From Teredinibacter turnerae (GTDB lineage Bacteria; Pseudomonadota; Gammaproteobacteria; Pseudomonadales; Cellvibrionaceae), in the NCBI RefSeq assembly GCF_037935975.1, contig NZ_CP149817.1, positions 5,022,001-5,086,000 on the forward strand: a stretch of DNA of 64,000 nucleotides. The letters are read 5' to 3'. The notes under the pieces are model-generated. The model ran no database searches, had not been told where the DNA came from, and saw only the letters and a program-made list of their open reading frames with translations. Shown here piece by piece: positions 3,831 through 62,269 of the stretch. The translations under genes and the position numbers were made by a program. The first letter of the stretch is position 1, and each line of letters begins with the position of its first letter.

Positions 3831-4820
3831 ATGCCTTTTCTGATTATTGCTATTAGCAACTCGAGCCTGCCCGGTCTGGAGCGTCACGACCGGCTAATCG
3901 TTGAAGATCCGCTTCCACAAGCAAAGCTCATTGTGCGCCGCCGCAACCAAGCAGAGCGCGAATTGGGCGCTATCAAAACCGTGTACGTCAACACCACCGA
4001 GCCCGATGGGCTGATGACATTCACCGCCCTGGCGGTTATCGCTCAGAAGACATTTGTCCTGACAATAATCGCGCAGACAGTCGCCAATAAAGACGATAAA
4101 GCCTGCGACATCAATGTGGTACGCACCGCCCCTAATGTGAACCAAACACGTGCGGCGCTACCGCCGACCATGGTGAGCTACAGTGCGCACGGCACTATCA
4201 TCGACTCGCCGACAGGCCGCTTAAGCGGTACCCGCACAGCACAAGACCGCCTGCGCGCGCAGGGCATGGTTAATTTTATTATTGATAAAATCAACCAGGG
4301 TACGATTAAGGCACCGCTCCATCACGACCCGTTCGCGGAGGGCGATGAATTTATTCTCGACCAGGTTATTACCGCAGACCCTGGCCGCGATCGCTGGGGA
4401 GAGTTACGCAAAAACGATCGTATTATGGAAAATACCGATGGCGTTAAGCGCTGCCGAATTCAAAGCCTGGCAGGCGACAGGTTTCGTTATTGGTATCTGG
4501 TTTTCGCCACCGAACACCACGCTGAAGACACTCAGATTCAGGTTGACACGACTAACGACTCTCACCCCCACACGCTTGTGGTAGAGCAATATCCGCAAAC
4601 GCCACCAGCGCCCGGGTCGTCAAGATTAAATTTTTACTTCCGGTTTATCGGCCTTGAGGACATTACAACCTGCACTGAATTGCGCACATATATAGAAAAC
4701 CTGCCACCTGACACAAGTAGCTGGGAGGGGCTCATGGATTACTTCGACAACCACAACAAAATTGTGAACAGATTTCTGAGCCACTTACAGGGCAGCGGCG
4801 GCGGTTATATTAATATTTAG
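3831..4820 (+). CDS. Unrecognised 329-residue protein of the CHAT-sigma cluster
   Basis: I do not recognise a family. The gene has a strong AAGGAG ribosome site 5-6 bases before its ATG and follows the anti-sigma-like gene by 36 bp on the same strand, so it is likely co-transcribed. There is no signal peptide and no clear membrane segment. The first half is mixed alpha/beta and includes a hydrophobic strand stretch around residues 63-85 (LMTFTALAVIAQKTFVLTII). The centre is charged (about residues 160-200) and the second half includes a YWYLVF strand and a Pro-rich turn near residue 255. The C terminus is Gly-rich (GSGGGY). Given its place it could be an effector or a protease substrate, but nothing in the sequence proves either. 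Confidence 0.7.
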   Translation: MPFLIIAISNSSLPGLERHDRLIVEDPLPQAKLIVRRRNQAERELGAIKTVYVNTTEPDGLMTFTALAVIAQKTFVLTIIAQTVANKDDKACDINVVRTAPNVNQTRAALPPTMVSYSAHGTIIDSPTGRLSGTRTAQDRLRAQGMVNFIIDKINQGTIKAPLHHDPFAEGDEFILDQVITADPGRDRWGELRKNDRIMENTDGVKRCRIQSLAGDRFRYWYLVFATEHHAEDTQIQVDTTNDSHPHTLVVEQYPQTPPAPGSSRLNFYFRFIGLEDITTCTELRTYIENLPPDTSSWEGLMDYFDNHNKIVNRFLSHLQGSGGGYINI

Positions 4821-5064
4821 GAAATATCTGATTTTATTCACTGGGCGATTAAATAGAAGATCCTGGCTATTTAATTGCCGACTCATGACATTTCTGCCTA
4901 AGCGGATAACTTATTATTTTTTTGCGAAAGCGGCTAAAAACGCATTTAACCAATGAGGTTTCAGAAAAACGGAAACGCATTAACGGCACAGAAGCTTAGA
5001 GCGAGGCGACGTCAATAGCGCACGCCTCTAGGAGAAGATTGGGCTGGAGCCCATACATAAAGCG

Positions 5065-5766
5065 CTAATCGAAAAATTTAAAATCCTGTGCGCGGAAGTA
5101 ATCCCCGTTCGGACCGTTGTCTGCAACAATAACCGGCGCGAGCATGCCCGGCAGGGTGGATTCTACGGAATCCCAGGCATCCGGCCCACCGAGATCCGTG
5201 CGGATCCAGCCGGGATCGACAGCATTAACTCTGACCGCGGTATCTTTAAATTCAAACGCCAGATCTTGCGTTAATTTATCAACGGCGGCTTTCGATACAC
5301 TGTACGGCGCAAGGTTTGGTTGATCAGCAATACCCGACGATACATTGACAATACGCCCCCAGTTACGGGCTTTCATGCCCGGGCCAAACGCGTTCACAAG
5401 TTTTACCATAGCGAAAACATTCACCTGAAAAACCGACATCCAGGTGGCCATATCGAATTCGAACACAGGCGTGGACGGGCAGCTGATGGCTGCATTGTTA
5501 TAGAGAATATCCACTTGCGGCGCCACCTTGTTAACCTGGTCAATAACAGCGTTGATCGGCGCTTCGCCATCCAGTTCACCGGCAACCGGATGCACTGTTA
5601 CATCGAAGTCGGCGAGCATATCCAGCGTCGCCGTCAAATTTTCCTGAGTGCGGCCGTGGACAACCAGATTACACCCCAGTTGTGCCAGCCCGAGTGCGAT
5701 CTGTTGACCAATGCCGCGACTGGAGCCTGTCACTAATGCCCATTTTCCTTTAAGATTTTTTTTCAT
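5065..5766 (-). CDS. Short-chain dehydrogenase/reductase (SDR)
   Basis: A 233-residue classical SDR. The Rossmann cofactor motif TGSSRGIG lies near residue 14, NNAA near residue 91, and the catalytic Ser-Tyr-Lys group appears as VSSGIADQPNLAPYSVSK around residues 143-160. It would carry out NAD(P)-dependent oxidoreduction of a small carbonyl or hydroxyl substrate in the cytoplasm; the substrate cannot be read from the sequence. Its start overlaps the hemY stop as ATGA, so it is probably translated with hemY at the end of the hem operon. A link to tetrapyrrole metabolism is suggested only by position. Confidence 0.88.
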   Translation of the reverse strand: MKKNLKGKWALVTGSSRGIGQQIALGLAQLGCNLVVHGRTQENLTATLDMLADFDVTVHPVAGELDGEAPINAVIDQVNKVAPQVDILYNNAAISCPSTPVFEFDMATWMSVFQVNVFAMVKLVNAFGPGMKARNWGRIVNVSSGIADQPNLAPYSVSKAAVDKLTQDLAFEFKDTAVRVNAVDPGWIRTDLGGPDAWDSVESTLPGMLAPVIVADNGPNGDYFRAQDFKFFD

Positions 5767-6968
5767 TTTTTCTCCTGTTGGTGAGTCGTGAGTTGCAACA
5801 GCCCCAACTGATACAACTCCGTACTTTTTTGATGATCGCCCAATTGCGCCAGCAGCGCGGCGAACTCCGCATACGCCTGCGGATTTTTTTGTAATTGCAG
5901 GCTGCTTTCAAAATAACTGCGCGCTTTACCCCAAAGCTGATTACGCATGGCAATACGCGCGAGCGCCAAGAGTAAATCCGGGTCGCCGGGCCGTTCACGG
6001 AGCCACTGCTCAGCCACCAGTAACTGTTCATTGTCGCTACCACCGCGCACGCGTCCATACAATTCCACCAAGCGCGCATCCCACTGTTTGGTGAGTATGC
6101 GACGCAACTGTTGCTCGGCGGTTTCTTCTGCCCCCAAACGCTGTAAGTGGCCGCAATACTGCAACACTAAAACCTGAGACTGTTTGAGCGACTTATCGAG
6201 CTTTTGCCAGTAGGACTTCAGCTCGTCCAAATTAAATTTATGCGTATCCAGAACTGCGCTAACGGCATCCACTTCGAGACTGTGCAACTGCTCGGGGGTG
6301 TAAGCTTTACTTTTTTTCAACTCAGGTAGCAGGGCTTGCACGGCGGCCCAATCGTTTACCCGTTGATATACGGTCAATAGCAAATCGAGCACCACCGGAT
6401 GCCGTGGCGCGACACTGCGGGCGCGCTCCAGTGTTGCCAGGCACTGCTCGCACTGTTGGTTTGCCAGTTGCATTTTAGCTTGACTCAGCAACACCGCGAG
6501 TTCGTTTTCCGGGGCGACTTCTTCCGCTTTGGACAGTAACGCCTGACAGGTCTCCATATCGCCCAATTGATGCGCACTGTGCGCCGCCGCCAGGTAGTGC
6601 ACTAACGGCTGATCCGCGTACTTAGCCACACTCAACAAATCTTTTTTTGCCGCTTGCCAATTGCCTTCAATATAGTGAATCAGGCCGCGCTGGGTTCGGG
6701 CGTTCAACTGTCGAGAACGGCCTTCGGCAAAGAATGCCCAACTCACGCCCAGCGAGCGCAATATTGCGCGAAGCAAAATATAGCTCCAGCGCATTACCAA
6801 TATGCCAAATACCACGGCAAAAACAGCGAACCAGAAACTGGTTTCAATGGTCGTGCTGCCGAGGCTAATTAAAATGTAGCCAGTGTCAGCTTTAATTAAC
6901 TCGAGAATCAAAGGTGCCGCAACAATTGCGCACAGCGTTAATATTCCAAGCAGGTGGAGGCGCTTCAT
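5763..6968 (-). CDS. hemY: HemY-type inner-membrane TPR protein
   Basis: A 401-residue protein with two membrane segments at the N terminus (about residues 5-23 and 41-63) followed by helical TPR-like repeats. This is the layout of proteobacterial HemY, which sits beside hemCDX and is linked to protoheme synthesis or coproporphyrinogen handling, though its exact biochemical role is unsettled. It is not the Bacillus protoporphyrinogen oxidase that shares the name. It starts one base after hemX ends and overlaps the following SDR gene by four bases. The TPRs suggest that it scaffolds other late heme enzymes at the membrane, which is inference. Confidence 0.9.
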   Translation of the reverse strand: MKRLHLLGILTLCAIVAAPLILELIKADTGYILISLGSTTIETSFWFAVFAVVFGILVMRWSYILLRAILRSLGVSWAFFAEGRSRQLNARTQRGLIHYIEGNWQAAKKDLLSVAKYADQPLVHYLAAAHSAHQLGDMETCQALLSKAEEVAPENELAVLLSQAKMQLANQQCEQCLATLERARSVAPRHPVVLDLLLTVYQRVNDWAAVQALLPELKKSKAYTPEQLHSLEVDAVSAVLDTHKFNLDELKSYWQKLDKSLKQSQVLVLQYCGHLQRLGAEETAEQQLRRILTKQWDARLVELYGRVRGGSDNEQLLVAEQWLRERPGDPDLLLALARIAMRNQLWGKARSYFESSLQLQKNPQAYAEFAALLAQLGDHQKSTELYQLGLLQLTTHQQEKK

Positions 6969-6969
6969 G

Positions 6970-8235
6970 TTAGTTGCCTCCTGCGCTTGGCTTGCCAGCC
7001 CCTTTCAAGTTGTGAAGATCTTCGATATAGCTGTGCAGTAACTCGAGCGACCCACTGATATCCGGCAGCTCAACAACGATATCGCGTTCCGCAAGCGCGT
7101 TTAGTTCCTGGCGGTAGCGCTCCACCGGAGCCGACGCAGGGTAAAACTGTGCCAGATAGCCCTCGGCCTGTTCCAGACTGTTGGTATAAATAGATTGTTG
7201 TTCACGCAGGAGTGCGAGCTGCGCACGCTCGAGCATTAAACGCACATTTTGCTGCAGGTACTGGGCAGATTCAGCCGACATCAACGGTGCAGGTTTTTCC
7301 GCGTGGTTGTTAATATTGATGTAATTACTCAGGCTTTTACCAAATGCGCGCAGGCTTTTTTTCATCGCCGCCCACCAGTTGTCGGTGGTAAGGTTTTCGT
7401 CAAGCGTTTCCCCCTCAGGGTTCTTGCCACGCCCTAATACCTGCTCGCGGTCCGGTCGCACTGGCAACATCACCACTTGGGTTATTAACCCGTTAATTTG
7501 CAGGTAGAGCCCCTCGCGATCTATTTTGTTTATTAACCTTAAGGCCGCCAGGTCGTTATTCACGGCTTTGCGTAAAGCAAATAAATCGGGGTCGTCCAGA
7601 TCGCGCAAGATGGCATCGGCTTCGGTAAGCAATGCATCGGCGCCTTCAGCGCTGCGCTCAATCAAAATACGCTGATTAGCGAGTTTCAGAAGATACTCCG
7701 CTTCAGCCAGCAACCAGTCTTCACGGGTAATGGTAGACATCGCCAACAGGCGTTTATTCTGCGCTTGCAGCCGTTGTTCCGCCGCGGTGAGACGGTCACC
7801 GATGGTGCCCACTGCCTGTTCGCGTTCGCGTCCGACCGTGCTCAACGCCTGTCGCAGCTGGTTCAATTGCTGGCTTTGTGCGGCCAGTTGTTGTTGCAGT
7901 TCGGCCAGTTCCCCCGCCTTACTTTGCGTCTGCTGATAGTAGCCATAGCCATACCAACCGAGGCCCGCCACAGCGCCCGCGACCAGTAAAATAAGCAGCA
8001 GCAACAACAGCGAAAACCAGGGAATGCCTGAACCCTTGCGTGGTTCTGTTGGGGGTTCAGATGGTGGCCACTGTTCAGCTTCCGGGTCTGGCGTCTGCTC
8101 CGCTGCCTTATCCGCTGTTGAGTCAGACCCGTCCGGCGCGGGCGCAACAATAATCGCCGTTTGCTCTGATGGTTGATCCGATTCAGGTTTGGATTGAGAT
8201 TCTTCCTGTGGCGAGGGCATCTTGTCGTCGGTCAT
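6970..8235 (-). CDS. hemX: HemX family membrane protein
   Basis: A 421-residue protein with a long acidic, Pro/Glu-rich cytoplasmic N terminus (residues 1-70), one strongly hydrophobic membrane segment (about 72-97) and a coiled-coil (about 103-145) leading into a conserved periplasmic HemX domain. HemX proteins are often annotated as uroporphyrinogen-III C-methyltransferase, but they lack the SAM-binding methyltransferase fold and none is seen here. The gene overlaps hemD by four bases (ATGA) and is followed at once by hemY, giving the standard hemC-hemD-hemX-hemY order. It probably helps organise heme enzymes at the inner membrane. Confidence 0.92.
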   Translation of the reverse strand: MTDDKMPSPQEESQSKPESDQPSEQTAIIVAPAPDGSDSTADKAAEQTPDPEAEQWPPSEPPTEPRKGSGIPWFSLLLLLLILLVAGAVAGLGWYGYGYYQQTQSKAGELAELQQQLAAQSQQLNQLRQALSTVGREREQAVGTIGDRLTAAEQRLQAQNKRLLAMSTITREDWLLAEAEYLLKLANQRILIERSAEGADALLTEADAILRDLDDPDLFALRKAVNNDLAALRLINKIDREGLYLQINGLITQVVMLPVRPDREQVLGRGKNPEGETLDENLTTDNWWAAMKKSLRAFGKSLSNYININNHAEKPAPLMSAESAQYLQQNVRLMLERAQLALLREQQSIYTNSLEQAEGYLAQFYPASAPVERYRQELNALAERDIVVELPDISGSLELLHSYIEDLHNLKGAGKPSAGGN

Positions 8236-9032
8236 AAATCCGTCTTGTCCAAAGTTGCAATAAATTCGTGAATCGCGGCAAGCATGGCCGCTTCACCGGC
8301 ATTGCGAGCAATCTGTATATGTTGGAAACCCCGTTCTGCAGCCAGTGCAGCCACCCGCTCACCAGGTACAACAAGCGCAAACGCCGATAGATCTGCGCCC
8401 GCAGTGGTTGCGACATACAACAGGTTCTGCAAGGTTTCGCCACTGAACACGCAAAGCACATCCTGCGCTGGATTGAGGTTCGCGTGCGTAAACTGTGCTA
8501 CCGCCTCGGCTGGCAGCGTGCGCTGGTAAAGTTCGCAATAGGTAACTGCCGCACCCCGATTTTCCAATTCGTCGCCAAGGCGAGGCCGACCACCCACACC
8601 GCGACATATCAGTATTCGCTGGTGTGCCACCTGCTGCAACCCGGGCAGGGCAAGCAGCTCTTCGGTATTCATCGCCGCGAGCGCAGCGTGCACTGTCGCT
8701 TCGCTGCCGAGAAACTGCTGAACCTGGGCCGCCGTTTTGTTGCCGACCGCGTAGTAGGTTATTCCTTGTGGCAGCTGTGGCCAGTACTGGTCCAGCCAGT
8801 GCCAAGTTGCTTCCACGGCATTCTGGCTGACAAAAATCACGGCATCATAGTGATCGAAATCCAGAATACAGTTTTTGATGCGTTGTACGTGCGCGGGTTC
8901 CTGTACGGGCGTAATTGCCAGTAAAGGCAGCGCCAGAACCCGGTAGCCGGCCCCCTGGAGTTTACTGCTCCAATTGCTGTTTTGCGCAAGCGGGCGACTG
9001 GCAAGAATGCGCCAATTATGCGGGTGCGTCAC
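8232..9032 (-). CDS. hemD: Uroporphyrinogen-III synthase HemD
   Basis: HemD closes and inverts ring D of hydroxymethylbilane to give uroporphyrinogen III, the branch point to heme, siroheme and cobalamin. The protein begins [13 protein letters not shown] after the start residue and shows the two-lobed HemD pattern, including [11 protein letters not shown] near residue 63 and a conserved C-terminal VPGERVAA segment. I prefer the GTG at 9032, which gives an N terminus of family length and a 17-base overlap with hemC. An ATG at 9056 would add eight residues; the longest open frame, from 9125, would run deep into hemC. Ribosome sites are weak for all choices, consistent with translational coupling to hemC. 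Confidence 0.9.
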
Positions 9033-9951
9033 CGTACACTCGCTTGAGAATGGCATCGGCGCCGGCCGCCAGAAGTTTTTCTGCCAGCACAACACCCAGT
9101 GTTTCTGCATCTGCCGGGTCGCCAATCACTTGATCGTACAGCACCTCGCTGCCATCCGGGTCGGCGACCAGGCCGCGCACCCAGAGCTGGTTGTCCTGAT
9201 GAATGGCGAAGCCGCCAATCGGCACCTGGCATCCGCCTTCGAGTTTGCGATTCATCGCGCGCTCGGCGAGCACCGCCTGCTCCGTTACACCGTGGTGCAG
9301 CGGCTGCAGCAGCGCCAGCGTCTCTTGGTCGTCGGTGCGGCATTCAATGCCAACTGCACCCTGGCCGCCAGCGGGCAACATTACTTCCGGCGCAATAAAT
9401 TCAGCGATACGGTCGACCATTTCCAGGCGCTTTAATCCGGCAGAAGCCAGAATAATTGCATCGTATTCACCCGCGTCCAACTTCGCCAGGCGGGTATTAA
9501 CATTGCCGCGCAAAAATGTGACTTCGAGATCCGGGCGCATTGCCAGCAGCTGGCTCTGGCGGCGCAGACTGGACGTGCCGATGACGGCGCCGGCAGGGAT
9601 CGCATCGAGGTTGGCGTATTTATTAGACACCAGCGCATCGCGCGGGTCTTCGCGTTCACAAATGACGGCAAGGCCGAGACCTTGCGGGAACTCCATGGGG
9701 ACATCTTTCATCGAGTGCACCGCAATATCGGCCTCACCGGCAATCATCGCCTGCTCCAGCTCCTTCACAAACAGGCCTTTACCGCCGACTTTTGCCAGCG
9801 GAACATCGAGTATTTTGTCGCCACGGCTGGTTAGCGGTACCAGCTCCACCGCGAGTTCCGGGTGGTGCCTGCACAGTTCAGACTTAACGAATTCGGCTTG
9901 CCAAAGGGCCAGCGCACTTTTGCGCGTGGCGATGCGAAGAGTGTGTTTCAC
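9016..9951 (-). CDS. hemC: Hydroxymethylbilane synthase (porphobilinogen deaminase) HemC
   Basis: HemC joins four porphobilinogen units into hydroxymethylbilane using a dipyrromethane cofactor. Signature motifs are [12 protein letters not shown] at the N terminus, [36 protein letters not shown] and the cofactor-binding Cys in [10 protein letters not shown]. The likely start is the GTG at 9951, giving [12 protein letters not shown] as expected for the family, with AAGG upstream; the open frame reaches back to 9990 but adds only unrelated residues. It is the first gene of the hemC-hemD-hemX-hemY-SDR operon. A 19-bp tandem repeat lies in its upstream region (10063-10100). Confidence 0.97.
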
Positions 9952-10062
9952 GGAGGGACCTTGGTGGTTTTTGGATCTGGCGGCAATCATACCAGACCCG
10001 TCCCACGAGCGCCGAGCTACGGTGGTAGCTCAACATTTTTTGCAGAGGGTGTGCAGGCTGAA

Positions 10063-10105
10063 ATCCACAATCACAGTATATATCCACAATCACAGTATCT
10101 ATCCA
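10063..10105. repeat. 19-bp-period tandem repeat between hemC and algR
   Basis: The 17-base word ATCCACAATCACAGTAT occurs at 10063-10079 and again at 10082-10098. A third partial copy (ATCCA) begins at 10101, giving a period of 19 bases. It lies in the roughly 200-base gap between the end of algR and the start of hemC, upstream of hemC. Direct repeats of about two helical turns are the form used by LytTR-class regulators such as the neighbouring AlgR, but their usual period is nearer 21-22 bases and the word does not match the AlgR consensus I know. Function is unproven. Confidence 0.75.
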
Positions 10106-10152
10106 AAACCAGAGTTGCGGCTGCGAGAACCTTCTGTGAACGCCAGCCAGAA

Positions 10153-10884
10153 TCAGAGTCGTGACAGTAATTCGCGCACGTTAGATACGTGACGGCGGCT
10201 TACCACAGGACGATATTCCACAGATTTTAAACGCAGTTCAAACTGGCCACTGCTGTTGCGTTCCATGGCTTCGATTTCATTGATCGACACCAGTGCGTTG
10301 CGATGAACCCGTAAAAAACGGTCCGGAAACTCCTGCTCGAGCTCTTTGAGCGTGTCGTCAATCAGCGTTTCGCCTGCCGAATGTCGCACGGTGACATACT
10401 TTTGATCGGCGATAAAACACTGGATTGAGGCGATGGGAATCAGCTCCATGCCTTTGCGGGTTTTAGCGGTGATGTGCTGGCGCTGCCCCTCGGGCGCGGT
10501 ATTGCTGACCGCGTTGCGCTGCACCTTATTTAGCCGCATCGCATTCTGCAGCGTGTCCACCAATTGTTGCTGCTGCACCGGTTTTAACAGGTAGCCCACC
10601 GCAAGCGTCTGAAACGCCTCCAGCGCATATTCATCGTAGGCAGTACAAAAGATAATCGCCGGCGGCTCGGGCAGCTGAGCAATTTTGCGCGCAGTCTCCA
10701 GGCCATCTTCCCCGGGCATTCGGATATCCAACAGTACAATATCCGGATCGAACTTATCCACTGCTGCCACCGCGTCTATCCCGTTGCTGGCTTCGCCCAC
10801 CACCTCGTAGCCGTCCAACTGTTCGATCATCCGAATCAGGCGTTGGCGGGCCAGCGGCTCGTCGTCGACAATTAACATATGCAT
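10153..10884 (-). CDS. algR: LytTR-family response regulator AlgR
   Basis: A 243-residue response regulator. The receiver domain (residues 1-120) has the acidic pair DDE at 7-9, the phospho-acceptor Asp in VLLDIRMPG (near residue 54), the Thr in FCTAYDEYA and Lys in LLKPVQ. A LytTR DNA-binding domain follows (about 140-243), with the conserved FLRVHRNALVSI motif. In pseudomonads AlgR controls alginate, type IV pili and other surface traits and is encoded next to its sensor AlgZ and hemC, exactly as here. The gene lies 14 bases after algZ on the same strand, so the two are co-transcribed. Target genes in this organism cannot be read from the window. Confidence 0.94.
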   Translation of the reverse strand: MHMLIVDDEPLARQRLIRMIEQLDGYEVVGEASNGIDAVAAVDKFDPDIVLLDIRMPGEDGLETARKIAQLPEPPAIIFCTAYDEYALEAFQTLAVGYLLKPVQQQQLVDTLQNAMRLNKVQRNAVSNTAPEGQRQHITAKTRKGMELIPIASIQCFIADQKYVTVRHSAGETLIDDTLKELEQEFPDRFLRVHRNALVSINEIEAMERNSSGQFELRLKSVEYRPVVSRRHVSNVRELLSRL

Positions 10885-10898
10885 TACAAAAGCGTCCT

Positions 10899-11987
10899 CT
10901 AACTCATCCTGGGCCGCGCCGGGAACCGCAAATAAATAATATATTCGCCCTCCGGCTGCTCGACCTTTAATTCTGCGTTCTTCTCATAATAAGCCATCAA
11001 ACGGTGGCGTATATTTTCCAGAGCCATACCATTACCCTCAGCGGTCGATTTTGCCTCCCCGGCGGAGGGGTTGAGCAGCACCGGGTTGCGCACACATATC
11101 TCCACCCGCTGCTTGTCGAGCGCGATACTCACTTCAATCCTGCCGCCTTCTGGCAGTGGTTGAATACCGTGGTAGATGGCGTTTTCAACCAATGGCTGCA
11201 GCAAAAAACTGGGGATGATTATCAGCCCCATACGCGTTTCCTCCAGCGACGATGGCTGACCATCGCACCAGTAGCGCCACTCACTCTGCAGGCGCGCGCC
11301 CATGCGGATCTGCTCGATGCCGATATAACTTTCGCACAAGGCGATCTCCTCGCGCAGCGGAGTCAAACCAGCCTCTTTCAAGCTCGCGCGAAACAATTGC
11401 GACAAATCCACCACCATGCGCTCTGCCGCTTCCGGGTCAAACCCAATCAGACTGGCGATAGAATTCATGCTGTTGAACAAGAAGTGCGGCCGAATACGCG
11501 ATTGCAGCGCCTGAATGCGCGCCATCATCTCAGCTTTTTGCTGATTGCGTAACTGCTGTTGCAGGTACAGATAGCGCAAAGTGATACCAGCGATAACACC
11601 GGCCACCATCAAGTGGCTAAAAGTTACATCGCTCTGGATTGGCACCTGTAAAATAAAATGCTGGTAACTCACCGAAAAAACGCCGGTGGATACCAGGGTA
11701 ATTGAGTAGCTCAGGATCCCCGCCGCCAGCGGCGCCATGCGCGCGAGCACCGGTCGCATGCGGCAAAGGCCTGCAGCGCTGGTGAGCACGATCCACAGCA
11801 CCAGCATAGACACCACGCCAAATTCTGACCAGTTGAATTCGGTGAGTCCGGTATCGGACACGAGCAGCGCCATCACCAGCAGCTCGCTCACCAACACCAG
11901 CCCGAGTACACTTTGCACGCCGCATAAATCGGGCAGAAAATCCCCGCCGGCAAGGGGCTTTTCGGTGTTAGGACGCTTCTCTGCCAA
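10899..11987 (-). CDS. algZ: LytS-type sensor histidine kinase AlgZ/FimS
   Basis: A 362-residue membrane kinase. The N-terminal half carries several hydrophobic segments (about residues 30-150). The cytoplasmic half has the His_kinase motif RPHFLFNSMNSIASLI, in which the His is the expected phosphorylation site, and an atypical HATPase region with LLQPLVENAIYHGI near residue 265. It is expected to phosphorylate AlgR, encoded just downstream. The gene is divergent from argH with only about 73 bases between the two starts, the same arrangement as in Pseudomonas, so both promoters share that gap. Confidence 0.92.
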   Translation of the reverse strand: MAEKRPNTEKPLAGGDFLPDLCGVQSVLGLVLVSELLVMALLVSDTGLTEFNWSEFGVVSMLVLWIVLTSAAGLCRMRPVLARMAPLAAGILSYSITLVSTGVFSVSYQHFILQVPIQSDVTFSHLMVAGVIAGITLRYLYLQQQLRNQQKAEMMARIQALQSRIRPHFLFNSMNSIASLIGFDPEAAERMVVDLSQLFRASLKEAGLTPLREEIALCESYIGIEQIRMGARLQSEWRYWCDGQPSSLEETRMGLIIIPSFLLQPLVENAIYHGIQPLPEGGRIEVSIALDKQRVEICVRNPVLLNPSAGEAKSTAEGNGMALENIRHRLMAYYEKNAELKVEQPEGEYIIYLRFPARPRMS

Positions 11988-12060
11988 TGGGTTTTCCTGC
12001 TCAGGTATAATGCGCGGTTAAAAATTTCAGCAACTTGATCACTGCAACGGCGGTATAACT

Positions 12061-13458
12061 ATGAGCCACGATGAGAATTCTGTAAAACCCTGGGGTGGGC
12101 GCTTCAGCGAAGCGACCGACGCATTTGTGGAACGCTTCACGGCCTCGGTAAATTTCGACCAGCGCCTCTACCACCACGACATCAATGGCTCCATCGCTCA
12201 CGCCACTATGCTAGCCAGCGTCGGGGTACTCAGCGATGATGAAAAAAATGCCATTATTGAAGGCCTGGAGGGGATTCGCAAGGATATTGAAAGCGGTGCC
12301 TTTACCTGGTCGGTGAGTTTGGAAGACGTTCACATGAATATCGAGGCAGAACTCACCAAACGCATCGGCATCACGGGTAAAAAGCTGCACACCGGGCGTT
12401 CGCGCAACGATCAGGTCGCCACTGATATCCGTCTGTATCTGCGTGACGAAATCGATGTAATTGGCAAGGAACTGACGCGTTTGCAGCAGGGGTTACTGTT
12501 CCTCGCGGAGCGCGAAGCTCATACCATAATGCCTGGATTCACCCACCTGCAGACCGCGCAACCGGTGACCTTTGGCCATCATTTGCTGGCCTGGTATGAA
12601 ATGCTGAGCCGCGACTACGGCCGCTTGATGGGTTGCCGCAAGCGCCTCAATCAATCGCCGCTGGGTGCCGCAGCGCTGGCCGGTACCACCTATCCGATTG
12701 ATCGAGAACAGACCGCCGCATTACTCGGATTTAACCACCCCACCCGCAATTCACTGGACTCCGTCAGCGACCGCGACTTTGCCATCGAATTTTCAGCGTT
12801 TGCTGCCTTGCTAATGACCCACCTCTCCCGCGCCAGCGAAGAGCTGGTACTGTGGACCTCGGCGCAATTCAATTTTATCGACCTGCCAGACCGCTTCTGT
12901 ACCGGTTCTTCGATTATGCCGCAAAAGAAAAACCCGGACGTGCCTGAGCTTGTGCGCGGCAAAACCGGTCGCGTCAACGGCCACCTTATCGCCCTGCTCA
13001 CATTAATGAAGTCACAACCACTGGCCTACAACAAAGACAACCAAGAAGATAAAGAGCCATTGTTCGATACGGTCGATACCGTGAAAGACTGCCTGCGCGC
13101 ATTTGCCGACATGGTGCCCGCCTTGAATGCCAATAAGGCAGCGATGCTCGAGGCCGCCAAGCGCGGCTTTTCTACCGCGACGGATCTCGCCGATTATCTG
13201 GTTCGCAAAGGCATTCCATTCCGCGATTCGCATGAAATTGTTGGCAAATCAGTCGCTTTCGGCATAGAACAGAACAAGGACTTATCTGAAATGACGCTGG
13301 CGGAATTGCAGCAGTTTTCTGACGCCATCGAGAATGATGTGTTTGAGGTACTTACCCTGGAGGGGTCGGTTGCAGCGCGCGATCATATCGGCGGCACAGC
13401 GCCAGCACAGGTGCTGAAAGCGGTTGAGCTGGCAAAAGCGGAGCTTGCGGCGCGCTAA
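12061..13458 (+). CDS. argH: Argininosuccinate lyase ArgH
   Basis: ArgH splits argininosuccinate into arginine and fumarate, the last step of arginine synthesis. The 465-residue product has family-standard length. It shows the N-terminal [12 protein letters not shown], the HTGRSRNDQ substrate motif, [13 protein letters not shown] containing the general acid/base region, and the fumarase/aspartase superfamily signature [12 protein letters not shown] with its mobile catalytic Ser loop. It is divergent from algZ. It ends 54 bases before the convergent crc-like gene, with a perfect hairpin between them. Confidence 0.98.
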
Positions 13459-13469
13459 ACGCCGGGCGC

Positions 13470-13490
13470 GAGTCGCCCGTGCGGCGACTC
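13470..13490. terminator. Hairpin between convergent argH and crc-like gene
   Basis: GAGTCGCC at 13470-13477 pairs perfectly with GGCGACTC at 13483-13490 across a five-base loop. It lies 12 bases after the argH stop and 23 bases before the stop of the convergent gene. There is no U tract on either strand, so it may mark RNA 3' ends without being a classical intrinsic terminator. Confidence 0.45.
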
Positions 13491-13512
13491 ATACTTCGCA
13501 GTGAAATATCCG

Positions 13513-14286
13513 TTATAAGTCGTCGATATCGTAATCGACAATTACCGGCAAATGGCTGGAGAAGTGGCGGGTTTTATACATGGCTGCATACTCAACTTTG
13601 CGAGTCAGCGCTTCGGACACCACCTGATAGTCCGTTCGCCAGCCGTCGCCCTCACCGATTTTGCCGGAGGGCCACCACGAGTATTCACCACCTTCGGGCA
13701 CCGCAACCCGGAACGCATCCGCATAGCCAAGCTGGCGGAACAACTGGTTCATCCACTGCTGTTCGTGCGGCAGATAGCCGGATTGATTGGTGTTATTTTG
13801 CCAGTTCTCCACATCTTTTTTGCCGTGTGCCATTGCCCAGTTTCCGCAAAAAATAAAGTGGCGGCGCTTGCGTGTCACCTTGTGGAGCAACGCCTGGAAA
13901 TCGTCAAAAAACTTGATTTTGACTTCCTGGGATTCAGTTTCGGAAAACGCGGTCGGCGCCAGAAGCGAGCCAATGGAGTAACGCTCGAAATCAACCTGAA
14001 GGTAACGGCCCTCCATATCCACACCACTCGCAAACCCCAGCCCATAGATCAACGCCTTCGGCTGGTGACGGGTGTAGATGGCCACTCCGTTGTAATGTTT
14101 TACACCGGAGTCAAAAAAATACGCAAAGTAGCCGTCCGGATGAAAAATATCATCATCCAGCTCATATTCCAGTGCCCGGAGATCTTGCAAGCAAATAATG
14201 TCAGCATCCTGCTCTTCTATCCAATCGAACAAGCCCCGCTGAGCCGCCTGATGAATACCATCGACGCACAGACTGATTACTCTCAT
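13513..14286 (-). CDS. crc: Crc-like catabolite repression control protein
   Basis: A 257-residue member of the endonuclease/exonuclease/phosphatase fold that aligns along its length with Pseudomonas Crc (DADIICLQDLRA, GRYLQVDFE, DDFQALL, SWWPSG, WRTDYQV, VIVDYD). Active-site residues of true nucleases are altered: the E of LQE is D, the GDFN metal/catalytic motif reads GNWAMAH, and SDH reads SSH, as in Crc. In pseudomonads Crc is not a nuclease but helps Hfq to repress translation of catabolic mRNAs. It is divergent from pyrE, the classic crc/pyrE pairing. A role in carbon-source hierarchy is likely but inferred from orthology. Confidence 0.88.
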   Translation of the reverse strand: MRVISLCVDGIHQAAQRGLFDWIEEQDADIICLQDLRALEYELDDDIFHPDGYFAYFFDSGVKHYNGVAIYTRHQPKALIYGLGFASGVDMEGRYLQVDFERYSIGSLLAPTAFSETESQEVKIKFFDDFQALLHKVTRKRRHFIFCGNWAMAHGKKDVENWQNNTNQSGYLPHEQQWMNQLFRQLGYADAFRVAVPEGGEYSWWPSGKIGEGDGWRTDYQVVSEALTRKVEYAAMYKTRHFSSHLPVIVDYDIDDL

Positions 14287-14601
14287 ACCAACCCCTTTAT
14301 AACACCTTGGTATGATACAGATTCTTTTATTTTGTTGTCATTATTTATGAGGTAATTCATCTCGCGTTCATTTAGGTTCTGGTTTAATTGTCACAGTTGC
14401 GATTTGTGCGAAGTATTTTCCTATAATAGCCAGATATCTTGAGTTCGCTGGCCGGATTTACAGGGAATAGCCGCCACCTCAGGCCGTTTTGTGCGGCCGA
14501 CTCAGCCTGACAGCTCGTAAACAATGTATGTCGGCGCTTGCACCCCGCGAGGGGGCGGCAGGCCACCTCGTTTTTTCAATCGCACTATTTCGGAGTACCC
14601 C
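14287..14601 (+). promoter_or_regulatory. crc/pyrE divergent region with pyrE leader
   Basis: This 315-base gap holds no gene of its own. A TATAAT at 14422-14427, with a possible TTGCGA at 14397-14402 (19-base spacing), is a candidate pyrE promoter. It would leave a leader of about 160 bases before the pyrE ATG at 14602, which contains the terminator-like hairpin listed separately. An in-frame ATG at 14524 reads through the hairpin into pyrE and may represent leader translation, but it lacks a good ribosome site. Confidence 0.45.
14548..14576 (+). terminator. Terminator-like hairpin in the pyrE leader (possible attenuator)
   Basis: CGAGG at 14548-14552 pairs with CCTCG at 14566-14570, with additional GC pairing possible inside the stem, and six T residues follow directly (14571-14576). 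It ends 25 bases before the pyrE ATG. Pyrimidine genes such as E. coli pyrE and pyrBI use exactly this kind of leader hairpin for UTP-sensitive attenuation. The structure is seen; the regulatory role is inferred. Confidence 0.6.
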
Positions 14602-15243
14602 ATGCACGCCTATCAGCAACAGTTTATTGAGATGGCCATTGCCAGCCAGGCTCTCAAGTTTGGCGAGTTTACGCTCAAGTCGGGGCGTGTAAGCCCGTAT
14701 TTTTTCAACGCGGGCATGTTGCATATGGGCAGCAATATCGCTCATTTGGGGCGGGCATACGCGCAAGCATTAGTGGATTCCGGGCATTCAGTCGATATGA
14801 TTTTTGGCCCGGCGTACAAAGGCATTCCACTCGCCGCAGCCACGGCTAGTGCCCTGGCAGACCACCACAATCGCGATCTACCCTATGCGTACAACCGTAA
14901 AGAAGCCAAAGATCACGGCGAAGGCGGCACTCTGGTAGGCGCACCGCTCGCAGGCAAAGTCGCCATCGTCGACGATGTTATCACCGCTGGAACGGCTATT
15001 CGTGAGGTACTCACGCTTTTAAAGCAAGCAAAGGCTGAACCAGCAGCGATTGTTATTGGTCTAAACCGGAAAGAACGCGGCCAGGGTTCGCTCTCGGCCA
15101 TTGATGAACTTCAGCAATCTACCGGTGTGCCGGTGGTCAGCATTATCGACCTCGATCACATCATGATGTACCTGGAAAAAGCCGGCGATCAGCAAACAAG
15201 CGAAAAGATTGCGCTTTACCGCGAGCAATATGGATTAGATTAA
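14602..15243 (+). CDS. pyrE: Orotate phosphoribosyltransferase PyrE
   Basis: PyrE transfers phosphoribose from PRPP to orotate to make OMP in pyrimidine synthesis. The 213-residue product from the ATG at 14602 (CGGAG upstream at 14591-14595) begins [13 protein letters not shown], the usual family start. It has [41 protein letters not shown] and the PRPP-binding [16 protein letters not shown]. The longer frame from 14524 would add 26 unlikely residues spanning the leader hairpin. Its stop overlaps the start of the next gene by one base (TAATG), so the two are probably translated together. Confidence 0.97.
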
Positions 15244-15881
15244 TGCACAGTAAAACCACGTTAAGGGGCGTCAATGCCTTTTTATCTGTACTACTTTTTG
15301 TGCTGGGTTGCAGCTTCGCTGTAAACGCCAGCGCTCAGCATGTTTACTACCGCTACGTTAATAAGGACGGAGTCAAAGTACTCGAACATTCAATACCACC
15401 GGAATACGCACAATTGGGCTATGAAGTGCTGAACGCATCCGGCCAGGTTGTCAAAGTTGTACCACCGGCACCCACCGACGAAGAGGTTGCCAAAAATGCC
15501 CAGGAACGTGAAGCGCGGGAAATTTATGCGCGGCTCAAACGCCGCTACTCTTCGGCAGCCGAAATCGAATCAGCCAAACGGCGCAGGCTCGCCAATATCG
15601 ATACGAATATCGCTATTTTGAAAGGCAACATCTCCACCGTAACCAATGAAATTCAAAAGATTATGGGAAAGGCCGCTGATTACGAGCGGCGCAACCAGAA
15701 AGTACCAGCGCCAATACTGCAAAGCTTGAACGACGCCAAAGCAGAATTGGAAATTGCGCAAGAATTATTAAAAAGCCGACAGGAAGAGTATCAGGAAGTT
15801 ATCGAAAAATACGACAGCGATAAGGACGCGTTTGTGCGCGGCGAAACACTAGAAGCCAAAGAAGACGCGCGCATTCAGTAA
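15243..15881 (+). CDS. Exported coiled-coil protein with DUF4124-like N terminus
   Basis: A 212-residue protein with a signal peptide (about residues 1-31, cleavage near NASAQ) and a short DUF4124-like segment, YYRYVNKDGVKVLEHSIPPEYA. A long charged helical region (about 80-205) rich in Lys, Glu and Ala probably forms a coiled coil. It is likely periplasmic. It overlaps pyrE by one base, so expression is tied to pyrimidine synthesis or merely to a shared transcript. No enzyme motif is present and no function can be assigned. Confidence 0.75.
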   Translation: MHSKTTLRGVNAFLSVLLFVLGCSFAVNASAQHVYYRYVNKDGVKVLEHSIPPEYAQLGYEVLNASGQVVKVVPPAPTDEEVAKNAQEREAREIYARLKRRYSSAAEIESAKRRRLANIDTNIAILKGNISTVTNEIQKIMGKAADYERRNQKVPAPILQSLNDAKAELEIAQELLKSRQEEYQEVIEKYDSDKDAFVRGETLEAKEDARIQ

Positions 15882-50768: not shown

Positions 50769-52931
50769 ATGAATAACAACTGGTTAAACAAACTTTGGCG
50801 AGGTGCGGCATGCTCCGCTCTCGCCGTGTTTGCGAGCACTAGCTTAGCGAACACGGTGACCTCGGCTGGCGGTACCGCAGCCGCGACCATTAACGTCAAT
50901 AACGACTGGGGCGCAGGCTATTGCGCAACCGTTGCCATTAGTAATCAAGGTTCAGCACCGGTAACAGGCTGGCAGGTCGAGCTGGCGCTGAGCGGCGCGA
51001 CCATATCTAACCTTTGGAACGGTTCGCTGACGGGTAATCTGGTGAGCAACCTCAGCTACAACGGCACCATTAATGTGAACGGCAGTAGTGAGTTTGGCTA
51101 TTGCGCCAACGGCAGCGGCGGAAATTACCTGCCGTCACTGACCAGCCTCACCGTTCAGGGTGGTGGCACCACTTCGAGCTCGAGTTCAAGCTCCTCCAGT
51201 TCAAGTTCGTCGAGCTCGAGTTCGTCAAGCTCAAGCTCCTCCAGCTCAAATTCCAGCTCGTCTAGCTCTAGCTCATCAAGCAGCTCGAGTTCGTCGGGTG
51301 GCGCGTGCCAGGTGTGCAACTGGTACGGTGAAATTCGCCCACTGTGCGTTAACCAGGACAGCGGCTGGGGCTGGGAAAACAGCCAGAGCTGTATTGGCGC
51401 CAACACCTGTAACAGCCAGTGGGGCGGCGGCGGTGTGGTGGATAACTGCGGCTCTACCAGCAGCTCCAGTTCATCCTCCAGCAGCTCGAGCTCATCCAGC
51501 TCCAGCTCGTCCAGTTCATCGTCTTCCGGTGCGTCTTCGAGCAGCAGTTCCTCATCGAGCAGCTCGTCATCCTCAAGTAGTTCATCAAGTAGTTCGTCGT
51601 CAAGCAGCTCATCTTCGTCCTCGAGTAGCTCATCCTCTTCGTCCAGCAGTTCCAGTGGCGGTATCCCTAACGCGGCGAGTAACGGCTGGCCGTACTGCCG
51701 CTCAGCCGATTCCGATCCGGACGGCGACGGCTGGGGCTGGGAAAACAGCTACTCCTGTATCGTATTCGGCTCTGCCGCAGACCCAGGTCCAGGTGACTTT
51801 GACTACTGCCTGATTGGTGACAGCGAGTTGACACTGTGCAGCACAGACAACGGTAGCTGGGGCGCCGAAAACGGTGAAATCTGCCTGTCCGCCAGCATGT
51901 GCCCCGGTATGGGGTCGGGTGTCCAAGGCGCTATGCGCGATACACCGGTAAACCCGAACGCCAGTGCCAAAACCCAGTCGCTCTACAGCTACCTGCAATC
52001 GATCTGGGGTAACCATATGCTCGCAGGCCAGATGGATCTCACCTGGCAAGATGCTATCGACCAGTACCAGCGGTGCATCAACGATACCGGTCGCGCGCCT
52101 GCGATGATGGGATACGACTTCCTCAACTACGGTTTGTACTGGAACGGTATCTCGGGCATCACGCAAACCGAAGAGGCTATCGAACACTGGAATCGCGGCG
52201 GTATCGTGTCCTTCACCTGGCACTGGCGTGATCCAGACGCGGCTGACGGCACGATTGGTGAGTTCTACACCGAAGACACCAGCTTCACTATCCCCATCGC
52301 CAACGGCGAACTGGACACGTCCAGCCCGTCCTACGCCAACATCCAGTCCGATATCGCAATGATTGCTGCCGAGCTGCAAACGCTGGAAGACGAAAACATC
52401 CCAGTGCTGTGGCGCCCATTGCACGAAGCGTCCGGCGGTTGGTTCTGGTGGGGACGTTCAGACCGCACTGATGGGGTCCCAGCGGCCTACGCGCAGGTTG
52501 TCCTCTGGCGTCACTTGTACGAAACACTCACCAACGAGTACGGTCTGGATAACCTTATCTGGGTGTGGAATGGTCAGAGCGGTGCCTGGTACCCAGGAGA
52601 CGACTACGCGGATATCGTGAGCGTGGACATTTACGACGGCGAACAAAACTATGAGTCGCAGATAGGACCTTACGCGCTCACCGCCAATTATCCGCAACAG
52701 GTAAAAATGGTTGCGCTGAGTGAAAACAGCAATATACCAGACCCGGATCTGATGGCAGCAGACGGTGCCTGGTGGCTCTGGTTTATGGTGTGGAACGATT
52801 CAGATACAGACGAAGGCGTGAGCAGCTCCGGGAATTTCTGGACTGGCGAGTACTACAACACCAATGCGCACAAAACCCACGTCTACAATCACGAGTATGT
52901 TATCACTCTGGATGAACTGCCCGCGTTCTAA
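50769..52931 (+). CDS. Secreted multimodular beta-mannanase (CBM2-CBM10-CBM10-like-GH26)
   Basis: A 720-residue secreted enzyme. After a signal peptide (about 1-27) comes a CBM2-type cellulose-binding module (about 28-132). Next is a polyserine linker (136-176), a CBM10 (about 177-230, with [10 protein letters not shown] and [10 protein letters not shown]), a second polyserine linker (231-296 with one Gly-Ala break), and a second CBM10-like, Cys-rich region (about 297-385). A GH26 domain (about 390-720) ends the protein. Catalytic residues are expected at Glu553 ([10 protein letters not shown]) and Glu652 (VALSENSN). It should cut beta-1,4-mannan while binding cellulose. Serine codons in the linkers are mixed. 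Polyserine linkers and CBM10 point to the Cellvibrionaceae. Confidence 0.94.
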
Positions 52932-59473: not shown

Positions 59474-59751
59474 GCGTTTTTAACGTCAAACGGAAGTAAA
59501 AAGAAGATTTTTGTCGAGCTTATTTACGACTTTATTCCATGGTGTGCCAGCGAAGGCTGTATTGGTAATGCCAATCGATCCAAGGCTCGCTTAATACGCC
59601 AGAGTTAGGTAATTTTTTCACAACGCATGCACACAGGGAACACTCCTTGCTCTCTCCCTTCGGGTTCGGTGTGTTTTAAATCCTCGTAAGAAAGGAAATA
59701 AAAACGCCATCCGAAGATGTAAATAAAACCTAAACTGGCAAGGAGAAAATC

Positions 59752-61638
59752 ATGGATCGAAAACGAAACCGGCCGCTAAAAGGCTGGATTGGACGAATCG
59801 CGACACTGTGTTTGTGTTTCGTCGTCGGCGCAATGGCAGCACGAAGTTATGCCGCCCAGGATAATTTCGGCAAAGAATTTTTGCTCCCCTTTTTACCGAA
59901 CGCCTATGGCGCAGTGACACTGCAAGTTCATCTTACCGGTAATACCACCACGGACGTGTCGCTGAGTTACCCGATGAACAGCCCGACTTTCACCACGACG
60001 GTAACAGTGCTCCCTGGCACTGTGACGGTAGTTGATATTCCGCTTAGCGCGAATGACTGGACCGATGGCGCAGTGGCAGACAATTTAGTATTCGCCGAGA
60101 GTGAGGAGGAATTCGTCGCATACCTCGTGAATCTATATCCGCAAAGTTCAGATGCTGCTCTCGCATTACCCGTGGATACAATGAACACGCAGTATATTGT
60201 TGCCAGTTATCCGTCGACCTTCAGCACTTACGGTTTTAACAGCCAAATGATGGTCTATGCCGCTTACGATGGCACTGTGGTAACGGTTACACCGAAAGTC
60301 GCTGCCGGTTCCCATAGCGCAGGCACGCCCTACACTGTCAACCTCGACCGCGGCCAAGCCTATTACATTACGGGCAACACCAACGGCGCAGGCGGTGATT
60401 TAAGCGGGACAGAAATTTCCTCCAGCCGCCCGGTCGGTGTGATCAATGGTAATCAATGTACCCAGATACCCAACGGAACGCCCGCGTGCGATCATATTTT
60501 TGAAGTCGCGCAACCGGTACAAAGCTGGGGACAAAGTGCGTTGGTCGCCAACCTGCCTAATCGTTCAGGCGGTTCAATTTATCGTATCTATGCGTCCGAG
60601 GATGGTACGGACATTGGCATGGACCAGGGAATTCTGGCAACGGGGCTCAACAAGGGGGAGTTTCACGAAACAGGAATACTCAATGGTAACTACCTAATTG
60701 AATCAAACAACCCGATCTTTGTTACCCAGCTAATGACCGGACAAAACTCTTACGGCGCGGACTTTGGCGACCCAGCAATGGGTAACATGGTTCCCTCAGC
60801 ACAATATTTATCAAGCTACACATTCTCAACCGTAGGCGCCAATCAATTTGCCGAGCATTACTTAACGCTGTTTGCTAGAGACAGTGATATTGGCAGTGTT
60901 TTACTGGACGGTGCACCCATTCCAGCGTCGCAATTTACGAGCATTATTTTCACTGGTTATTCCGTTGCGATTTTGCCGCTTTCTCAAGGCGTGCATTCCA
61001 CATGGTCACCTAACCCCCATGGAATTACGGTCGAGGGCTACAACGGCTATGACTCCTATATCTATCCGGGTGGCGCGCTGTTTAAATCCATAAACCCGAC
61101 GGGCGATGCATGGCAACCCGTGTGCAGTATTGCGGAAGTTAACGGCGTATATGAAGGCTTGGTCACCGACAACAAACCCAGCGAAGACGTAAACGGCAAT
61201 GGTGTTTTGGACCCCGGTGAGGACACGAACGGCAACAATGTTATCGACGTGGACAGCGGCGTGTTTCTGCTAGAAAGCCTCACGCTGGTCAACATGATAT
61301 TCGCGCCTGCCACCTTTGTGCCCGGCGATCCACAAACAAGTTTTGAATTGACTGTGCTGGACCCAACACTTGCTGCAAGTGCCAGTATTCGCGCAACGGA
61401 TGGTGCGGGTAATACCTGTCTCGCCGAAGTGGATGTCGCCCCAGCACCCATGATGTGCGATGTGGATGGTGACCGGGATGTCGACCGCGATGACGTGACG
61501 CTGATTCGCGCTGCCCGCAACACGCCCGCAACGGATGATTCAGATCCGCGCGACGTTGACGGCGACCAAATGATTACCCTGAACGATGCACGGGTGTGTG
61601 TCACTCAATGTACGCGCGCAAGCTGTGCCGTAAATTAA
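59752..61638 (+). CDS. Secreted IgGFc-binding-like protein with dockerin-type calcium repeats
   Basis: A 628-residue secreted protein. A signal peptide (about 1-35) is followed by a large beta-rich domain resembling the IgGFc-binding N-terminal domain (about 36-450; motifs FGKEFLLPFLPN, YYITGNTNGAGGDLSGTEI, SSRPVGVINGNQC). Then come an EF-hand-like DVNGNGVLDPGED (from 61186) and two canonical 12-residue calcium loops, DVDGDRDVDRDD at 61459-61494 and DVDGDQMITLND at 61552-61587. The paired loops form a type-I dockerin-like C-terminal domain of about 50 residues. AAGGAG precedes the ATG. The next gene encodes a cohesin-like protein, a likely partner. Confidence 0.83.
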   Translation: MDRKRNRPLKGWIGRIATLCLCFVVGAMAARSYAAQDNFGKEFLLPFLPNAYGAVTLQVHLTGNTTTDVSLSYPMNSPTFTTTVTVLPGTVTVVDIPLSANDWTDGAVADNLVFAESEEEFVAYLVNLYPQSSDAALALPVDTMNTQYIVASYPSTFSTYGFNSQMMVYAAYDGTVVTVTPKVAAGSHSAGTPYTVNLDRGQAYYITGNTNGAGGDLSGTEISSSRPVGVINGNQCTQIPNGTPACDHIFEVAQPVQSWGQSALVANLPNRSGGSIYRIYASEDGTDIGMDQGILATGLNKGEFHETGILNGNYLIESNNPIFVTQLMTGQNSYGADFGDPAMGNMVPSAQYLSSYTFSTVGANQFAEHYLTLFARDSDIGSVLLDGAPIPASQFTSIIFTGYSVAILPLSQGVHSTWSPNPHGITVEGYNGYDSYIYPGGALFKSINPTGDAWQPVCSIAEVNGVYEGLVTDNKPSEDVNGNGVLDPGEDTNGNNVIDVDSGVFLLESLTLVNMIFAPATFVPGDPQTSFELTVLDPTLAASASIRATDGAGNTCLAEVDVAPAPMMCDVDGDRDVDRDDVTLIRAARNTPATDDSDPRDVDGDQMITLNDARVCVTQCTRASCAVN

Positions 61639-61672
61639 TCCTTTTTCTGGAGCTTTACTCAAGGAGCAACCT

Positions 61673-62269
61673 ATGAAAAAAATGCACGTGATTCAATTGG
61701 TTTCGGCGCTACTGTTAGCGGCGCATCTAACATCGGCCAACGCGATTACCATCGATATTTTACCCACTGAACAAACAGTGCTTCTCGGCGATCAGGTGGG
61801 TGTGGATATTTGGGTATCCGATTTGGGCGATAATTTCGCACTCGGCGATTTCGACTTTGACCTGAGCTTCGACAGCAGCATAATCAGCTTCGACAGCGTT
61901 TCCTTCGGCTCCGGCCTCGGCGATAGCTGGCAGGACTATTCTGCTACGGGCGGGCTGCTCAACCTCAATGAACTCTCCTGGGAAACCGCGGGCTCGTTAC
62001 TCGCCAATCAGCCGATGAATTTTTCGCTGGCCACCATTCTGTTCAACACAGAGGCCATTGGCAGTACCCAGGTAAGCTTCAGCACGGTTTGGGCGCTGGG
62101 CGATCAATGGGGCAACCCGTTCGACTTCACCACCAGTGATGGCACCATCAATGTGATTGGCGGCGTGAATCCCGTACCCCTGCCCGGATCACTGCCGTTA
62201 ATGCTAAGCGGTCTAATCGCTGCGGGCTTTGTGCGCTATAAAAAACAGCTGCTCAGCCGGTTTAAATAA
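61673..62269 (+). CDS. Secreted cohesin-like protein with PEP-CTERM-type C terminus
   Basis: A 198-residue protein with a signal peptide (about 1-24) and a cohesin-like beta-sandwich (about 25-160: LLGDQVGVDIWVSDLGD, GDFDFDLSFDSSIISF and a closing SFSTVWALGDQW region). Its tail reads VPLPGSLPLMLSGLIAAG followed by a basic end (RYKKQLLSRFK). That tail has the order of a PEP-CTERM sorting signal (VPLP-type motif, hydrophobic helix, basic residues), expected to be handled by an exosortase, none of which is in this window. AAGGAG precedes the ATG. It is 34 bases after the dockerin-like gene and surely in the same operon. Confidence 0.83.
   Translation: MKKMHVIQLVSALLLAAHLTSANAITIDILPTEQTVLLGDQVGVDIWVSDLGDNFALGDFDFDLSFDSSIISFDSVSFGSGLGDSWQDYSATGGLLNLNELSWETAGSLLANQPMNFSLATILFNTEAIGSTQVSFSTVWALGDQWGNPFDFTTSDGTINVIGGVNPVPLPGSLPLMLSGLIAAGFVRYKKQLLSRFK

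Follow-up and report, generated by a model that had tools for sequence, protein, structure and literature searches.

We analyzed a window, that is, a stretch of 64,000 nucleotides of DNA from Teredinibacter turnerae (contig NZ_CP149817.1, positions 5,022,001 to 5,086,000 of the forward strand), which carries two neighboring genes, referred to as ORF A and ORF B here. ORF B lies downstream of ORF A on the same strand, and 34 nt separate the stop of ORF A from the start of ORF B. The initial annotation had placed two genes side by side at this distance and had read their products as dockerin-like and cohesin-like partners; both the coordinates and the spacing were borne out, and strong indirect evidence supports matched modules in the two proteins and a sorting tail on ORF B. 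Signal peptides were seen by inspection in both, and ORF A is preceded by its own ribosome-binding site (AAGGAG, 59740 to 59745). The features, in window coordinates, are as follows.

59752 to 61638, plus strand: ORF A, 628 amino acids, with a signal peptide, an IgGFc_binding domain, and a C-terminal dockerin-like module (ORF list; PF17517)
60151 to 61035, plus strand: IgGFc_binding domain, residues 134 to 428, the cargo of the window pair (PF17517)
61438 to 61635, plus strand: dockerin-like module, residues 563 to 628 (family alignment; Dockerin_1 in 21/21 members; PDB dockerins)
61459 to 61494, plus strand: calcium loop 1, DVDGDRDVDRDD, residues 570 to 581 (sequence; invariant Asp columns in the family alignment)
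61552 to 61587, plus strand: calcium loop 2, DVDGDQMITLND, residues 601 to 612 (sequence; invariant Asp columns in the family alignment)
61597 to 61626, plus strand: C-terminal Cys616, Cys620, and Cys625 of ORF A, with Cys616 covarying with Cys569 (61456 to 61458)
61661 to 61666, plus strand: ribosome-binding site AAGGAG of ORF B (sequence)
61673 to 62269, plus strand: ORF B, 198 amino acids, with a signal peptide, a single cohesin domain, and a VPLP-type sorting tail (ORF list; PF00963)
61745 to 62164, plus strand: cohesin domain, about residues 25 to 164 (AlphaFold2 model; Foldseek; VIA)
62174 to 62236, plus strand: VPLP-type exosortase sorting tail, residues 168 to 188 (TIGR03370, below cut-off; XrtD elsewhere in the genome)

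The central part of ORF A matches the IgGFc_binding model PF17517 in a Pfam profile search with an E value of 9.7e-69 (232.3 bits against a cut-off of 25.6). A second IgGFc_binding protein of about 3,650 amino acids is encoded elsewhere in the window genome (locus L078, G000:C1:448000-467000, ORF 4578 to 15539), and it has no dockerin at its end. Between the IgGFc_binding domain and the dockerin-like module, ORF A contains another pair of calcium-loop-like motifs, DVNGNGVLDPGE and DTNGNNVIDVDS (window 61186 to 61257), and this region partly matches the dockerin tail of a relative.

At the C terminus of ORF A, the acidic calcium-ligand positions are filled in both loops, as expected from the earlier description of two canonical 12-residue calcium loops; the usual Gly at position 6, however, has given way to R or Q, and the word “canonical” overstates the match a little. 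This missing Gly in both loops may be part of the reason for the weak score of the tail against Dockerin_1 (PF00404), which stays under the cut-off with 11.3 bits. The tail family as a whole scores better: Dockerin_1 matches every member of the family alignment (best E value, 2.3e-8), and several relatives exceed the Pfam cut-off (for example, those at loci L106 and L158, with 33.4 and 27.9 bits). Searched against the PDB, the family profile reaches the dockerins 2y3n_B, 5lxv_B, and 1ohz_B, and ordinary EF-hand proteins too. The AlphaFold2 model of the tail (pLDDT of ∼93 to 96) consists of two loop-helix units (F-hands), with no helix preceding loop 1, and the two loops and helices of a type I dockerin are present in the sequence, the family alignment, and the model. 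The lists from the structure searches were taken up by cohesins, and the comparison with solved dockerins is that of the sequence profile. Taken together, the C-terminal module of ORF A is most likely a dockerin. A PF00404 search of the window genome returned nothing over the cut-off and missed this module; therefore, the family alignment was needed, and Pfam alone is misleading for the window sequences.

The tail family is set apart by the last two cysteines, each of which is present in 43 of 44 loci. A further pair of cysteines flanks the loops, the first immediately ahead of loop 1 and the second beyond loop 2; both residues occur in 17 loci and neither in 27, and not a single locus has only one of them. 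Since the N- and C-terminal ends of a dockerin lie close together, the covarying pair Cys569/Cys616 fits a putative clasp joining the two ends.

The cohesin-like domain ascribed to the second protein was recovered from its predicted fold, although its score against the Pfam model PF00963 falls just under the curated cut-off (20.5 bits versus 24.1). The AlphaFold2 model (pLDDT mostly 86 to 97) shows the nine-stranded jelly roll of cohesins, its best Foldseek match is 1g1k_A (E value, 9.5e-11), followed by the OlpA cohesin 3ul4_A, and VIA-align superposes it on 2vn5_A with a Z score of 18.4 and a root mean square deviation of 1.8 over 136 residues. All of the top 50 chains found by VIA for this model are cohesins, and the best PDB match of the cohesin-family profile by sequence is the non-cellulosomal cohesin of NagJ. 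By predicted fold, then, the domain is clearly a cohesin. Regarding the check by profile search that had been proposed for the two modules, neither window domain reaches its cut-off (E values of 5.8e-4 for the cohesin and 0.41 for the dockerin), while relatives from the family match both profiles, PF00963 detecting 17 of 22 ORF B relatives with a best E value of 6.2e-8.

The C-terminal tail of ORF B, VPLPGSLPLMLSGLIAAGFVRYKK, scores under the cut-off of TIGR03370 (E value of 6.9e-4, 19.6 bits versus 25.35). ORF B nevertheless has the layout of an exosortase substrate, with a C-terminal motif, a hydrophobic stretch, a basic end, and a cognate exosortase in the genome. The PEP-CTERM-type tail proposed earlier holds as an exosortase sorting tail of the VPLP type, which suits the only exosortase of the window genome, the VPLPA-specific XrtD (599.9 bits against a cut-off of 400). 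The XrtD locus (L077, G000:C1:295000-312000) also contains sugar-nucleotide genes, a PrsT-like TPR protein, and an exosortase-dependent surface protein of the XDP1 family. Of the tested genomes, all 30 that carry the family have an exosortase, versus 21 of the 50 that lack it. No exosortase turned up in G027, G031, and G259, which are incomplete genomes that do carry the pair. Comparison of tails with the resident exosortases shows that the sorting tail tracks the exosortase type, VPLP going with XrtD and PEP with XrtA. Among the genomes with XrtD, the cohesin tail is of the VPLP type in the window genome, G136, and G032, and a same-genus ortholog of the cohesin (G133, 52% identical) has a PEP tail in a genome with XrtA. 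The rule is not absolute, because G388 has a VPVP tail and both exosortase types and G274 combines a VPVP tail with XrtA. In a Cellvibrio-like genome (L058, G032:C302), a VPLPA-tailed pair lies ∼12 kb from XrtD on the same contig, and most of its relatives have VPEP tails.

To gain an idea about the distribution of the two modules, we searched two genome samples with the family profiles. In the order-level sample of 391 genomes, the dockerin was found in 10 and the cohesin in 13, and all 10 dockerin genomes were among these 13. With the three training genomes of the profiles excluded, all 7 dockerin genomes of the remaining 388 fell within the 10 cohesin genomes (P = 4.8e-13; as for all co-occurrence values here, this is a simple hypergeometric test uncorrected for phylogeny). 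In the phylum-level sample, 12 genomes had the dockerin, 9 the cohesin, and 8 both (P = 2.8e-10 with two repeated genomes left out, again with no phylogenetic correction). These last counts are lower bounds, because the adjacent cohesin of one locus (L161) was seen only in a local search. The order-level profile search found no dockerin in three cohesin genomes (G175, G408, and G210), and no cohesin was found in two dockerin genomes (G769 and G780).

Adjacency was likewise conserved. Retrieval by the dockerin tail only gave 27 loci, of which 21 contain a cohesin gene, and the six without one are three from Bacteroidota or Clostridia, two from Accumulibacter, and one from a metagenome-assembled genome. 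Gaps between dockerin and cohesin genes on the same strand are mostly 8 to 44 nt; in L104, L106, L108, and L158, the cohesin gene is located upstream or a few kilobases off. The two Candidatus Accumulibacter loci (L136, 5084 to 5426; L138, 5839 to 6996) carry the dockerin-like module in two near-identical copies at the N terminus, right after the signal peptide, with a PEP-CTERM-like ORF upstream and no cohesin found. In another locus (L165, 5896 to 6609, G805), the gene for a dockerin-tailed protein precedes one for a PEP-CTERM protein, the body of which has no clear match to the cohesin profile; this second protein may be a cohesin that has diverged or another kind of socket.

Judging from sequence comparison, the pair of modules is conserved while cargoes change from one genus to another, the same dockerin tail being attached to at least nine unrelated types of cargo. 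In Cellvibrio, the ORF B homolog adjoins a protein of ∼850 amino acids whose similarity to ORF A lies mainly in the last 65 residues and which is an ExeM/NucH nuclease (NF033681; E value, 2.8e-194); in a second Cellvibrio pair, the cargo is a GH16 glucanase that also has CBM6 and CBM56. Loci from other families bring in endonuclease I plus ExeM, S8 subtilase, M9 collagenase, and M12B reprolysin, as well as GDSL lipase, glucuronyl esterase, and PKD proteins. Overall, the cargoes of the related pairs are mostly nucleases, proteases, lipases, and Ig/PKD proteins, and few are carbohydrate-active enzymes (CAZymes). Across dozens of loci, the calcium loops are conserved along with the cysteines of the tail and the order of the genes, which shows that the pair is more than a chance arrangement.

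Modeling and partner matching gave less uniform results. Both domains were folded as a single read-through chain whose linker included the signal peptide, and read-through pairs served as guides in the alignment used for folding. Reading the stop as G, and one four-letter step, served to join the chains and have no bearing on the code of the organism. The complex prediction called for earlier was not confident for the window pair, with a pTM of 0.59, which by our estimate is about the value of the cohesin alone; the linked Cellvibrio pair scored higher, at 0.71, above the estimated cohesin-alone value. As a sign of binding, both values are suggestive at most. Distances among dockerins correlate with those among cohesins (Mantel r of 0.83, or 0.55 when a single Cellvibrio ExeM pair is retained), which is weak evidence because shared ancestry alone could produce it. 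Swapping partners within a genome clearly lowered the fit in two Cellvibrio genomes, supporting the native pairing there, whereas G630 was equivocal, with a fit hardly lower, and G827 fitted slightly better when swapped.

Given these observations, we consider it likely that ORF A and ORF B form a private one-to-one cohesin-dockerin cassette for surface anchoring rather than a cellulosome. Both proteins would leave the cytoplasm via their signal peptides, and ORF B would be held by its hydrophobic C-terminal tail until processed by XrtD, which would pass it to the cell surface or the exopolysaccharide layer. There, its single cohesin would bind the dockerin of ORF A in a calcium-dependent manner and, therefore, the IgGFc_binding part would be displayed noncovalently at the surface, the role that we infer for ORF A. 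In other genera, the same cassette would display other cargo.

The closest rival, which we regard as unlikely, is that ORF B acts as a sorting adaptor through which a cargo lacking a tail of its own enters the exosortase route: ORF A would bind ORF B in the periplasm and ride along, and both would be released into the exopolysaccharide matrix or the medium. Co-occurrence, adjacency, and the presence of an exosortase are equally expected from such an escort, and delivery to a polysaccharide matrix would fit the company of XrtD, with its sugar-nucleotide and polysaccharide-type genes and its PrsT-like TPR protein. However, every cargo checked by eye either has a signal peptide or is of an enzyme type normally secreted unaided. 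Still less probable is that the two are simply cotranscribed extracellular proteins that do not bind each other, with other, separate functions for the cohesin-fold domain and for the EF-hand-like tail. The unconfident docking of the window pair and the matches of the dockerin profile to ordinary EF-hand proteins would agree with this; it leaves unexplained why the same tail is found on many unrelated cargoes with the same neighbor and why the cohesin is nearly always present in tail-bearing genomes.

Least credible of all is a minimal cellulosome-like complex for the breakdown of plant polysaccharides, to which a GH26 enzyme with CBM2 and CBM10 and the few related cargoes that are CAZymes (GH16 and glucuronyl esterase) might point, since ORF B has a single cohesin, family profile searches detect the dockerin and the cohesin once each in the window genome, Pfam searches of that genome gave no other Cohesin match (at an E value of 0.001) and nothing over the cut-off for Dockerin_1, and ORF A is no enzyme. 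We therefore rejected a cellulosome, as a multicohesin scaffoldin with several dockerin-bearing enzymes was not found at the search sensitivity used. The link to plant-polysaccharide enzymes drawn in the initial annotation was likewise not supported, and a complex of that kind was rejected for the window pair, whose cargo is the IgGFc_binding domain and no CAZyme. The nearest CAZyme found is the GH26 protein at 50769 to 52931, ∼7 kb upstream, and chemotaxis, MscS, and DUF6436 genes lie in between; the proximity of such enzymes is incidental. The GH26 protein itself is modular, with CBM2, three CBM10 stretches, and long poly-serine linkers.

Returning to surface anchoring, the recurrence of the cassette in many proteobacteria with differing secreted cargoes suggests an overlooked mode of holding proteins at the surface. 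We lean, somewhat less firmly than for the window pair itself, toward a widespread and as yet unnamed display module in proteobacteria, in which an exosortase-sorted single cohesin would be the dedicated socket for a neighboring dockerin-tailed cargo of nuclease, protease, lipase, glycanase, or adhesin-like type, with a tail suited to the exosortase and a dockerin that would often be clasped by the covarying cysteines. If true, exosortase sorting and cohesin-dockerin binding, which have been studied separately, would be joined, there would be an explanation for the way in which certain secreted enzymes without a sorting tail could remain cell associated, and naturally matched binding pairs would be on offer.

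Several known systems resemble parts of this arrangement. OlpA of Clostridium thermocellum likewise uses a single cohesin to hold a dockerin-bearing protein at the surface. OlpA-type attachment in Gram-positive bacteria relies on S-layer homology modules, whereas ORF B has an exosortase tail; moreover, OlpA serves cellulosomal enzymes, while ORF B probably has one partner. Cohesins and dockerins that occur singly or in small numbers apart from any cellulosome are also found in Archaeoglobus fulgidus, whose cohesin is among the top structural matches of ORF B, in NagJ of Clostridium perfringens, and in ANME archaea, and the main review of such modules is Peer 2009. The window cohesin differs from them in its exosortase tail, in the adjoining dockerin gene, and in the exchange of cargo between genera.

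Binding has been reported for non-cellulosomal cohesin/dockerin pairs of archaea (PMC9012536, PMC9705933), and ANME archaea have many such modules (PMC5244752, PMC9012536), including multicohesin proteins (PMC9012536). According to one review, the function of cohesins and dockerins outside cellulosomes is not known (PMC5244752); the cassette offers a concrete and testable role, namely, noncovalent surface display in Gram-negative bacteria. In Saccharophagus degradans 2-40, also a gammaproteobacterium, two dockerin-like and six cohesin-like ORFs were described with no classical cellulosome (Weiner 2008, PMC2386152), and that listing covered neither the pairing of genes nor sorting tails nor a test of binding. 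Our search of the open-access literature returned no paper combining PEP-CTERM with cohesin or with dockerin, nor did we find there a sorting-tailed cohesin, a fixed gene pairing, or the exchange of cargo. The surface proteins of the PEP-CTERM/exosortase system (Haft 2006, PMC1569441), including VPLPA-CTERM proteins with XrtD, share with ORF B the layout of signal peptide, domain, and sorting tail; ORF B differs in that what is sorted apparently serves a second protein as its docking adaptor.
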